From: Zeaxanthinibacter enoshimensis
Lineage (GTDB): Bacteria; Bacteroidota; Bacteroidia; Flavobacteriales; Flavobacteriaceae
Direction of reading: 5' to 3'
Length of the DNA stretch: 64,000 nucleotides
NCBI RefSeq assembly: GCF_004362865.1
Contig: NZ_SNYI01000002.1
Span: forward strand, 1,169,727 to 1,233,726
How positions within the stretch are numbered: position 1 is the first letter of the stretch; every line of letters starts with the position of its first letter. The translations under genes were made by a program, and so were the position numbers. Positions 35,812-64,000 of this stretch are shown here, in pieces. The notes beneath the pieces were generated by a model, which was not told the origin of the DNA, made no database searches, and saw nothing but the letters and a program-made list of their open reading frames with translations.

Positions 35812-36116
35812 TCTCCCAGGATAGTTTTTACCAATCGGTCCTGCTCTTCCTGCAGGCTTTCTGACGGATAGGGCTTCCCTATGCGGCCATACCAGTAGTT
35901 GGCATTAAAACGATCTCCTTCCTTCCGGTGAAGATACCCATGGATCCAGCTACCCATTTCCGTATTCAGCTCCTGGGCTATGTCATGAGACTTTTCCCAG
36001 TTATTCTTAAAATCCCACCACATTGCTTTCAGGGCCAGCGGCCACGAGTTCACAGGCAAGTCGCTATCCAGGGACTTTTTGAATTCTTCCAGTGTTTTAG
36101 GTACAACGCTCATCAT
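35802..36116 (-). CDS. conserved hypothetical protein, 104 aa
   Basis: A small soluble protein without signal peptide, rich in Trp (seven in 104 residues) and acidic/basic pairs: NSWPLALKAMWWDFKNNWEKSHDIAQEL and SWIHGYLHRKEGDRFNANYWYGRIGKPYP. The pattern of Trp/His/Asp looks like a conserved binding surface and I believe homologues occur widely, but I do not know a function. Its 3' end overlaps the molybdoenzyme gene by 10 bp on the opposite strand. Alternative start at the second Met. Confidence 0.78.
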   Translation of the reverse strand: MMSVVPKTLEEFKKSLDSDLPVNSWPLALKAMWWDFKNNWEKSHDIAQELNTEMGSWIHGYLHRKEGDRFNANYWYGRIGKPYPSESLQEEQDRLVKTILGDYA

Positions 36117-36243
36117 CTTTGATAAATATTTACAGTCCTACGGACAAAGATACCATGGCCTCGTCCCAAAATCTGCAGCCGATTAGGACGAAAATTGATT
36201 TATTGGCCAAATGATGGCGTTTAACCCTTTAAATTGATCAACC

Positions 36244-55225: not shown

Positions 55226-55291
55226 GGTTAAAATCAACCTCTGACGAGGTACGTGAATGTTGGTTTTGATAAACTCTAACAAAATATTATC
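55226..55291 (+). promoter_or_regulatory. structured rplS mRNA leader, possible L19 autoregulatory leader
   Basis: Inner hairpin ACCTC-TGAC-GAGGT (55237-55250) is enclosed by AAAATCA (55230-55236) pairing with TGGTTTT (55261-55267; one wobble), leaving a ten-base 3' bulge. A Flavobacteria L19 leader family has been described; I believe this is a member, but I have not aligned it. Confidence 0.5.
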
Positions 55292-61821: not shown

Positions 61822-62469
61822 TCAGATGACATCCAGGTAGATCATAAACCAATGGCTCAGGGCTCCCGCCAGGACAAATATGTGCCACACAAAATGATGG
61901 AAGGGTACGTGTCGCATTACATAGAAAACGATTCCGAGGCTGTAACAGATTCCGCCGGTGAATAGCAATACTATTCCCCTGAAGCTAAGCTGATCTGCCA
62001 ATTCCTGGAAGTAAAAAACGATAAGCCATCCCATCAGAAGGTAGATCATCAGGGAAAATTTTTCAAATCTCCCCGTAAAGAAAAGTTTAAGGACGGTGCC
62101 GACCAAAGCACAGCCCCAGACGGTATAAAAAATAAACCAACCATTTCCTTTGGCCATCAGGATCAATGCAACCGGGCTGTAGGTGCCAGCGATCAGGAAG
62201 AAGATGGAAATATGGTCCAGGATCCTCAATTTTAATTTGGACCCCGGGCTATTCACGGCATGGTAAGCTGTGGATGCTGCAAATAGCATTACGAAACAGC
62301 AACTGTACAGCAGGATACTGAAAAGCGGCCAGAAACCTTCTATGGAGAGTGCTCTTAGCATAAACACAGCACCGATAATTCCAAAGGGAATACCTACAGC
62401 ATGGGACCAGGTGTTCAGCTTTTCCTCTACGGGGTTGCTGCTACGGGGGTTAAGACGATTTCCTTTCAA
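61822..62469 (-). CDS. hemolysin III family (PAQR-like) membrane protein
   Basis: 215 aa, seven transmembrane helices. The PAQR/HlyIII pattern is clear: EEKLNTWSHAVGIPFG at the start of helix I, FAASTAYHAVNSP, LDHISIFFLIAGTYSPV, and VWHIFVLAGALSHWFMI at the end, with the conserved Ser/His/Asp metal-binding residues. No ATG fits: the frame is open to 62703, but family length and homology favour TTG 62469. Such proteins (TrhA/YqfA) affect membrane fluidity. The region upstream, 62470-62800, contains no further gene. Confidence 0.88.
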   Translation of the reverse strand: MKGNRLNPRSSNPVEEKLNTWSHAVGIPFGIIGAVFMLRALSIEGFWPLFSILLYSCCFVMLFAASTAYHAVNSPGSKLKLRILDHISIFFLIAGTYSPVALILMAKGNGWFIFYTVWGCALVGTVLKLFFTGRFEKFSLMIYLLMGWLIVFYFQELADQLSFRGIVLLFTGGICYSLGIVFYVMRHVPFHHFVWHIFVLAGALSHWFMIYLDVI

Positions 62470-62808
62470 ACATTGAGATTTAATGGAACAATATATTGAT
62501 GTGAACGGTTGATCTGCAAGAACCCGGACATTACCAATGATATTGTTCTTACCATATAGGATAAGGTCAAAAATAGTGAAATAGGTGCAGGTGTATTGGG
62601 TGAACGCAATTGCTTTGTCAGGAAATTTATCATTTAATCTAGTAGGGAAGATAAGATGATCATGGTTATTGGGCACTGTGATCCCTATAGCGAATACCTC
62701 CAAGCCGTGAGTGCCGAGTCCTTAACTGATTACTTTGATCAGCAATTAATGGCAGGAATTGTATGCTAGTTCTTCGACTTTGTATTTCAGGAGAGATAAT
62801 CAGTAACA
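62470..62808. other. non-coding stretch, no feature recognised
   Basis: Open on the minus strand but without homology; I see no RNA gene. It should include the hemolysin III promoter. The composition is more A/T-rich than the repeat array to its right. Confidence 0.5.
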
Positions 62809-63860
62809 ACGGGGGGATCATAAATCCCACCCCGGTAATAAGATAATTTTGTCTGCTGCAGTTTTCAAGCAGTGTATAGATTAATAATCTCTCCGGCACT
62901 GCTGTTTTCCTGCAGGGAAGGCGGTTATCTTAACTCTGGGGAGGGATTAGCACAATCCCCCACCTATCCCTGGACCCTGATCACAATGCAAGTTTTCTGC
63001 AGGGAAGAAAGATATCTTTAACCTTGGGGAGGGACCAATGGGTCCCAGGCCTGTGTATTCCTCTGTGCATGTTTTCTGCAGCGTAATCCTATAACTTGAC
63101 TCTGGGGAGGGAATAGCACAATCCCCCACCTATCCCCTGGCCCCTGATCACAATGCAAGTTTCCTGCTGGGAAGGAAAATATCTTTATCCTGGGGAGGGA
63201 TCGGTAGATCCCCGACTCATTAAATACTGTGCATGTTTTTCTGCAGGGAGAACGATTATCTTGTTCTTGGGGAGGGACCGATAGGTCCCCGGCTGTTAAC
63301 CCAGTGTGTGCTTCTTGCAGTCTAATTCTATAACTTGACACTGGGGAGGGACTAAGTAGTCCCCGGTTCTTCTTTTACTGGATGAATACTGTGCATGTTT
63401 TCTGCAGGGAGAACTATTATCTTGTTCTTGGGGAGGGACCGATAGGTCCCCGGGCTGTTAACCCCGTGCATGCTTAATGAAGTGTAACTCTATAACTTGA
63501 CTCTGGGGAGGGATTAGCACAATCCCCCACCTATCCCCTGGCCCCTGATCACAATGCAAGTATCCTGCAGGGAAGAAAGATATCTAAAACCTTGGGGAGG
63601 GATTGGTAGATCCCCGAGTCATTAATACTGTGCATGGTTTCTGCAGGGAAGGCGGTTATCTTGTTCCTGGGGAGGGACCGATAGGTCCCCGGCCTGTGTA
63701 TTCCTCTGTGCATGTTTTGTGCAGCGTAATCCTATAACTTGACACTGGGGAGGGACTAAGTAATACCCCGCCCTTCCTTCATTGGATAAATACTGTGCAA
63801 GTTTCCTGCAGGGAAGGCGGTTATCTTTATCCTGGGGAGGGATCAGGATCATCCCCAGTT
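62809..63860. repeat. tandem hairpin-repeat array next to the rRNA operon
   Basis: Twelve units, each with the exact 10-mer TGGGGAGGGA followed by a hairpin arm and closing CCC, with hairpins at 62943, 63031, 63109, 63197, 63274, 63348, 63435, 63510, 63599, 63674, 63751 and 63839. Spacing is 74-89 bp. Between hairpins lies a second block, usually containing TGCAGGGA and either TTATCTT or TATAACTTGAC. A degenerate copy is at 62809-62835 (GGGGGGATCATAAATCCC) and further decay at 62872-62897. Stem variants: GGGACC/GGTCCC, GGGACT/AGTCCC, GGGATT/AATCCC, GGGATC/GATCCC. Units 3 and 11 have stem mismatches. No open reading frame with coding character covers it. No known element type fits. Confidence 0.85.
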
Positions 63861-63919
63861 ACTTTGGGAGCGACAGAAATATCAGGCGCCGTTCCAATAC
63901 ATTGAGTTGAGTATAGGGC

Positions 63920-63954
63920 AAAAAAAAAGACCCCTACATTGCTGTAGAGGTCTT
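63920..63954 (-). terminator. rRNA operon terminator
   Basis: On the minus strand AAGACCTCTACA pairs with TGTAGGGGTCTT (one mismatch-tolerant G-T), loop GCAA, then a run of eight or more T. It lies a few bases past the 3' end of 5S rRNA. Confidence 0.92.
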
Positions 63955-63960
63955 CAAAGA

Positions 63961-64000
63961 AGGCGGCGGCCTACTCTCCCACCTAGTGGCAGTACCATCG
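63961..64000 (-). rRNA. rrf: 5S ribosomal RNA, 3' end only
   Basis: The reverse complement reads CGATGGTACTGCCACTAGG then TGGGAGAGTAGG and a GC-rich 3' end GCCGCC, the conserved 3' third of bacterial 5S rRNA. The gene continues beyond the right edge; 23S and 16S rRNA should lie further right, transcribed leftwards. Confidence 0.93.

Follow-up and report, generated by a model that had tools for sequence, protein, structure and literature searches.

A tandem array behind an rRNA operon is a local expansion of a dispersed Flavobacteriaceae repeat family with promoter-like boxes and a candidate RNA hairpin

The repeat array that lies directly behind an rRNA operon (rrn) near the end of the window (the whole 64,000-nucleotide stretch of Zeaxanthinibacter enoshimensis DNA analysed here) belongs to a dispersed repeat family, here locally expanded, and is not an rrn feature. 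Our preferred reading, to which we assign a probability of about 0.4, is that the array is made of units (twelve in tandem, one inverted) that belong to a family dispersed in Flavobacteriaceae and that may each combine promoter-like boxes with a hairpin formed in RNA. These dispersed elements match no Rfam model, lack a RAYT partner in the four genus genomes searched and carry sequence boxes as well as a covarying hairpin; some of them stand in tandem arrays whose evolution seems to be concerted with that of the rRNA operons.

Composition of the array and anatomy of the unit

The window contains 12 copies of the exact 10-mer TGGGGAGGGA, every one of them on the plus strand and between 62937 and 63842; 100 dinucleotide shuffles gave a mean of 0.29 copies and a maximum of 3. 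Start-to-start distances are 88, 78, 88, 77, 74, 87, 75, 89, 75, 78 and 87 bp, which confirms an earlier sequence-only reading that had reported twelve copies 74-89 bp apart. That reading had also described a loop and a complementary CCC-ending arm behind every copy. The arm is present in 12 of 12, but three of the twelve hairpins are imperfect by eye: the one at 63103 has one mismatch, the one at 63746 keeps little besides GGG/CCC, and the one at 63833 has a stem of only 5 bp. Twelve is likewise the correct number of forward units, but a covariance model found an inverted thirteenth (62811-62874, 48.5 bits) that had been overlooked. Tandem Repeats Finder listed nothing on the window. The features of the locus are as follows.

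61825 to 62703, minus strand: flanking gene related to haemolysin III (PF03006), with the start codon as picked by the ORF tool
62811 to 62874, minus strand: inverted unit, 48.5 bits with model R2 (see below), at the edge of the array away from rrn; the homologous stretch shared by the rrn loci (the 88% block) stops at window position 62813
62897 to 62962, plus strand: unit 1, 59.6 bits
62984 to 63049, plus strand: unit 2, 62.7 bits
63063 to 63128, plus strand: unit 3, 58.2 bits
63151 to 63215, plus strand: unit 4, 62.9 bits
63227 to 63292, plus strand: unit 5, 64.0 bits
63302 to 63366, plus strand: unit 6, 63.2 bits
63389 to 63453, plus strand: unit 7, the top-scoring unit, 70.9 bits; box A TGCATGTTTTCTGCAG, box B TATCTT, GGGGA, hairpin GGGACC-GATA-GGTCCC
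63464 to 63529, plus strand: unit 8, 53.2 bits
63552 to 63617, plus strand: unit 9, 56.9 bits
63628 to 63692, plus strand: unit 10, 69.7 bits
63706 to 63771, plus strand: unit 11, hairpin partly broken, 58.4 bits
63793 to 63858, plus strand: unit 12, 62.7 bits
63913 to 64000, minus strand: 5S rRNA (3' end) with the terminator, closing the contig; the 5S-terminator query matches here at 99% (G000:C2:1233639-1233726)
63926 to 63955, minus strand: intrinsic terminator of rrn, a 13-bp stem plus T run; the identical sequence stands 3' of 5S in rrn contigs

The gap from the end of unit 12 (63858) to the rrn terminator (minus strand, 63955-63926) measures 68 bp, in agreement with the earlier figure of about 70 bp. 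Since rrn lies on the minus strand, the G-rich units, which face the 3' end of 5S, run against rrn transcription. The array had been called the only gene-free interval above 300 bp. By crude ORF calls there are two such gaps at a 110-aa cut-off (35812-36243 and 62704-64000) and eight at 150 aa, but 62704-64000 is the longest at both.

Unit anatomy was read from 142 distinct anchored units out of 150 aligned, after removal of six without the anchor and two duplicates. The unit is about 64 bp long and is conserved from about -41 to the end of the hairpin, counting the first invariant G of the logo as 0; little is conserved upstream of the boxes. Box A (TGCAnGYTTYYTGCAG) occupies -38 to -23 and box B (TAaCTT) -12 to -7, the stretch before the invariant G is mostly AT-rich, and GGGG at 0 to 3 is followed by one free base, GGG and then hairpin 2. 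The foot thus reads GGGG-N-GGG on the 5' side, while the 3' arms close in CCC(C), mostly followed by GG. TGCAG, TANNTT and GGGG keep exactly the same distances in 127 of the 142 units. Box A contains TGCA-N7-TGCA, a repeat with an 11-bp step, close to one helical turn. Hairpin 2 occurs as GGGGTT/AACCCC, GGGATC/GATCCC, GGGACC/GGTCCC, GGGATT/AATCCC, GGGACT/AGTCCC and other variants. We dropped a reading of GGGGAGGG as an FtsK-type KOPS motif, since its A is replaced by C or T in many units (A 55, C 59, T 27, G 1).

A dispersed family, its positions and the two rrn arrays

As the sequence-only reading had proposed, we searched for the unit in this genome and its relatives. A covariance model built from 11 units (R1) gave 83 matches in the source genome (G000; 3.34 Mb, 12 contigs) at E<=1, many of them far from rrn. 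At E<=0.01, R1 matched 4 of 40 genomes and none of the other 36: 75 matches in G000, 21 in G001, 125 in G002 and 64 in G003, where G001 (68% complete), G002 and G003 belong to the same genus, Zeaxanthinibacter (Flavobacteriaceae). A second model (R2), made from 150 aligned matches, gave 81, 22, 140 and 95 matches in these four genomes and 90 in G236, a member of another genus (E<=1e-4; 150 candidates scored per genome); R2 was partly built from G000, G002 and G003, so that only the G001 and G236 counts are independent of it. In wider samples, with 13 candidates scored per genome and stricter filters in the family-wide one, matches were found in 12 of 397 Flavobacteriaceae genomes, covering 7 genera, and in 1 of 395 genomes across the class, which was the source genome itself; both counts are lower bounds.

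About 22 of the 81 matches in the source genome lie in its two rrn arrays (13 in the window, 9 in the second array, L009) and about 59 lie elsewhere. By crude ORF calls, 5 of the 27 non-rrn clusters are spanned by an ORF of at least 110 aa. The units have varied neighbours (ZIP, haemolysin-III, MutS, SpoU methylase, and a GltD-like protein with Fer4_20 and Pyr_redox_2), and among the loci fetched no unit-adjacent gene was common to both sides of the between-genera comparisons. A fixed position relative to genes was considered and rejected, as contexts are mixed in the genus: the possible orientations to the neighbouring genes are distributed 8/8/7/4 over 27 clusters in G000 and 7/5/4/3 over 19 in G002. 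In other genera (L107-L126), both neighbouring genes point opposite to the unit in 13 of 21 clusters, a bias absent in Zeaxanthinibacter.

We compared positions between 23 loci of the source genome and, in the sister species (Zeaxanthinibacter sp. PT1, G002), 20 loci fetched for their matches plus one obtained by a directed search for L084. For at least 14 of the 23 loci (16 clusters), the flanking DNA is shared with G002 and has units no more than 500 bp away in both genomes, the remaining loci having been judged against only part of the sister genome. Unit orientation is kept in 16 of 16 of these clusters, and eight share flanks on both sides. L072 was left out of the 14; there the shared flanking DNA ends 683 bp from the unit. 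With tens of clusters among a few thousand gaps, we estimate that chance coincidence would amount to a few per cent. The place of units is also common to two species in each of two other genera (L115/L116 and L120/L121).

At the three one-to-one sites that were aligned, unit identity is 54%, 70% and 74%, compared with 38%, 40% and 41% over the remainder of the gap. Pooled, identical columns number 129/196 in units and 227/572 in that remainder (Fisher p 3e-10, treating columns as independent), which suggests constraint on the units. At the 54% site (L082) the unit is no nearer to its positional counterpart than to other units, and its alignment with the unit at L099, the one of three such comparisons that was in register and was used, agrees at 21 of 24 conserved positions and 8 of 25 variable ones. 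Over all 38 non-rrn units, with L072 included, the best sister match falls in the orthologous locus for 8, where 2.3 are expected (p 0.024). All eight are in L015, L074 and L084, and these comparisons point clearly to vertical descent of single units at L015, at L074 and for one unit of L084, a locus where the units outlast the surrounding gap sequence. Array size can differ between species, as at L069/L100 with 2 versus 15 units.

The sequence-only reading had also suggested looking for the array behind every rrn copy. A 5S-terminator query against the source genome hit one full rrn contig end (C4) and two contig ends (C2 and C3), and judged from these contig ends the genome has two rrn copies with a like array behind each. 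The second array opens contig C3 and is 88% alike the window array over about 720 bp (721 columns). In the sister genome, contigs C2 and C6 end in arrays beside the same neighbour genes as in G000 and share a common end sequence, and the sole rrn contig (C9) shows the order 5S, terminator, common end sequence, unit. By model matches, the forward units number 12 and 8 in the two G000 arrays, and 3 and 5 in the stretches examined of the two G002 arrays. Each of these four rrn arrays has one inverted unit at its rrn-distal end (window 62811-62874; L009 795-858; L016 3613-3677; L017 3672-3735), and in both species the homology of the two rrn loci stops no more than 5 bp from the outer edge of this unit.

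Arrays with the same neighbour genes in the two species are only 69% (236 columns) and 67% (501 columns) alike in their best blocks. Since the two arrays within the source genome are 88% alike, compared with 67-69% between species, they are likely to evolve in concert. The two sister arrays are 83% alike over 234 columns and 74% over 320, and the inverted units score 0.80 and 0.79 within genomes versus 0.56-0.64 between them. The simplest account of this likeness would be gene conversion, or unequal exchange, that travels with the rrn operons. The earlier idea of a recombination zone between rrn copies is thus only partly borne out: the two arrays look homogenised, which fits recombination or gene conversion, but the element itself is not bound to rrn.

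Compensatory change and what the units may do

We asked of three alignments how often both sides of a predicted pair had changed together. Over the whole structure, the A4 alignment, which was not fitted to the model, had 7 such cells versus 2.4 after shuffling, confined to two pairs, a number of pairs reached by 103 of 500 shuffles. A5 had 96 over the whole structure versus 26.4 shuffled and at most 24 in slid registers, and A6, drawn from other genomes, had 14 versus 4.0 and at most 3; both alignments were fitted to the model and hence lean towards the structure. Hairpin 2 holds 94 of the 96 compensatory cells in A5 and 12 of the 14 in A6. The first dyad (TGCA/TGCA) shows little covariation, and its last pair is unpaired in 24 of the 30 rows of A6. 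When all possible pairs were scanned over 80 non-redundant units, the highest-ranking ones made no helix, and no helix was found among the boxes. Compensatory change is strong in hairpin 2 but not in the boxes. Two further structures were tried and rejected: a 7-bp first hairpin, whose outer pairs are at or near chance, and a second stem between box A and the CCTGGGG tract (proposed by RNAalifold on 11 units), for which only the pair -22/-3 was clearly above chance among the 80 units (49 paired versus 37.8).

The mismatches in hairpin 2 bear on which strand folds. With the register chosen on Watson-Crick pairs only, and with 30 ambiguous units and 5 others set aside, 107 of the 142 units gave 288 Watson-Crick, 16 G-T, 2 A-C and 15 other pairs; the model used to select units also underlies six of the 142 G-rich-strand hairpin counts, and to this extent pairing is built in. 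As G-T exceeds A-C by 16 to 2, the G-rich strand is likely the one that folds, and it probably does so on its own as RNA.

Taken together, promoter-spaced boxes that do not covary, an AT-rich stretch and a hairpin that covaries on the G-rich strand are best fitted by a small transcription start with an RNA hairpin behind it. With +1 set at the first invariant G, box B would lie at -12 to -7, and 17 bp separate it from the GYTT of box A. The two boxes at their fixed spacing could then act as a small promoter from which an RNA starts, and the G-rich-strand hairpin would form in that RNA, starting 5 nt after the invariant G. Tandem duplication may have made the arrays, gene conversion travelling with the rrn operons would keep the two rrn arrays alike, and the elements would be kept by selection. 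A protein bound to the boxes, or single-stranded DNA in place of RNA, would fit nearly as well. The usual -7 element of Bacteroidota is TAnnTTTG; box B does not have the end of this motif, and the upstream box is neither TTTG nor TTGACA. Scanning the region for sigma-70 sites returned a single one, which is on the opposite strand, versus 1.7 in shuffles. Counting against RNA genes, there is also no T run behind the units and no fixed orientation to neighbours in the genus. The fuller version of this idea, that Flavobacteriaceae carry a hitherto undescribed class of minimal RNA genes, is one we regard as doubtful. Such genes would be 64-bp cassettes in which a promoter of two boxes at fixed spacing precedes a G-rich 5' hairpin; each genome would have 80-140 of them, arrayed behind rRNA operons and elsewhere, with the rrn copies kept uniform by gene conversion.

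We weighed these interpretations against a REP-like selfish repeat, that is, a non-autonomous hairpin spread through single-stranded DNA by a lost or unrecognised transposase and then multiplied by slippage or unequal crossing-over. This is unlikely on balance, yet it would explain much: the family is dispersed, multi-copy and patchy (matches in 12 of the 397 Flavobacteriaceae), the hairpin has a conserved tract of unpaired G at its foot, and arrays differ in size between species, as at L069/L100. What counts against it is that none of the four genus genomes (including G001, at 68% completeness) matched Y1_Tnp (PF01797), while 5 of 14 control genomes did, and that the Y1_Tnp genes of other genomes, present in 5 of 9, have different palindromes beside them (by eye). 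The six Y1 loci of other genomes (L127-L132) contain no strong unit, the best scoring 19.3 bits at L130. A repeat spreading in this way would also sit poorly with units that lie beside the same flanking DNA in two diverged species and that at L084 persist longer than the gap around them. We think it distinctly less probable that the array binds a protein on double-stranded DNA, with the boxes as the site of a nucleoid protein or of a fork or transcription barrier and the hairpin secondary. Conservation of the boxes in sequence without covariation, their fixed spacing, the helical-turn repeat in box A and a placement that is independent of context in the genus all speak for such a site, but a duplex site needs neither the compensatory change nor the G-T excess of hairpin 2.

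Improbable, in our judgement, is a device specific to rrn, whether a recombination zone, a fork barrier or RNAs from rrn read-through. Arrays do stand at both rrn copies in two species and look homogenised within the genome. This is outweighed by the roughly 59 of 81 matches that lie elsewhere and by G003 and G236, in which no units were found in the stretches examined behind rrn (971 bp to the contig end in G003). The read-through RNAs of the sequence-only reading fare no better: such RNA would be the C-rich strand, the G-rich strand being antisense to rrn, and the asymmetry between G-T and A-C indicates that it is the G-rich strand that folds. An assembly artefact at the rrn boundary is hardly credible; contigs C2 and C3 do end at the 5S gene, but the arrays are joined to different genes inside contigs, occur at the same two places in another genome and are matched by many arrays far from rrn.

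Known repeats and the sequences around the units

The earlier description of the array as undescribed held against Rfam 15 (4227 models). At the gathering score the window gave only a ribosomal protein leader and nothing on the units, a relaxed scan of 62700-63950 gave only the end of the rrn terminator, and six array loci gave no match on units. The leader is L19-Flavobacteria (RF03130), at window 55235-55262. An array of intrinsic terminators is not indicated either, there being no clear T run behind the hairpins. A loose terminator criterion picked 2 of the 12 units on their own strand and four sites in the region versus 1.7 in shuffles, one of them the rrn terminator. Judged by its repeats, the array is also not CRISPR-like, as the earlier reading had claimed: identity of the 77-nt copies to the reference copy is 61-88%, and stretches of 131-135 nt recur with their spacers included.

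BOX and ERIC-type intergenic repeats are modular, genus-level and found in mixed gene contexts, and the small dispersed repeats of cyanobacteria are tiny hairpin elements associated with tandem heptamers; both are likened to the units by description only, and the latter come from another phylum. REP and BIME repeats, which are associated with RAYT transposases and fall into GTAG and CGTC superfamilies, resemble the units, according to excerpts of PMC3733652, as short intergenic palindromes in many copies, single and clustered, with a conserved foot on the folded strand. The units are indeed multi-copy intergenic hairpin-forming repeats. They differ from the repeats of those excerpts (PMC3733652) in being about 64 bp long with two upstream sequence boxes, and their foot, GGGG-N-GGG in the 142-unit logo, contains neither GTAG nor CGTC. 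In line with the sequence-only reading, we therefore rejected membership of the RAYT/REP group, there being no such foot, no Y1 transposase match in the four genus genomes and no strong unit at the six Y1 loci of other genomes. The Y1 genes of L127-L132 carry flanking palindromes of their own, for example CCGCCAGTCTCCAGACTGGTGG in L128, unrelated to the units. Searches of the literature on intergenic, REP, heptamer and post-rRNA repeats, in which subscription journals were thinly covered, yielded no description of the hairpin unit.

Outside the rrn arrays the units are often flanked by degenerate short tandem repeats. On the 5' side, locus means at lag 8 were 0.328 in G000 (21 loci), 0.372 in G002 (18), 0.324 in G003 (2) and 0.404 in G236 (6); on the 3' side, those at lag 7 were 0.354, 0.317, 0.266 and 0.460 in the same order, compared with 0.25-0.30 for unit-free gaps at lags 7 and 8. 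The 3' side of G002 also shows lag 8 (0.316), G003 has no 3' lag 7, and the weak-match genomes show little of either signal. Direct repeats of the intergenic heptamer TAACTGA are described from Beggiatoaceae, Cyanobacteria and a few Bacteroidetes (PMC4679880, in excerpts); the period-7 tracts 3' of many non-rrn units, which include CAGTnnn, are comparable in period, but those excerpts treat the heptamers themselves and do not describe such a hairpin unit. Behind rrn in G003 (L145) and G236 (L146 and L147) there is another kind of tandem array, made of repeats of the rrn terminator plus spacer, which in G236 lie 155 and 303 bp apart. At L074, L100, L104 and L107, loci from two genera, the tracts chiefly repeat every 8 bp 5' of the units and every 7 bp 3' of them (CAGTnnn, TTTGAGG, TTTGGAG), and at L074, L104 and L107 composite blocks of about 240-280 bp are repeated whole.
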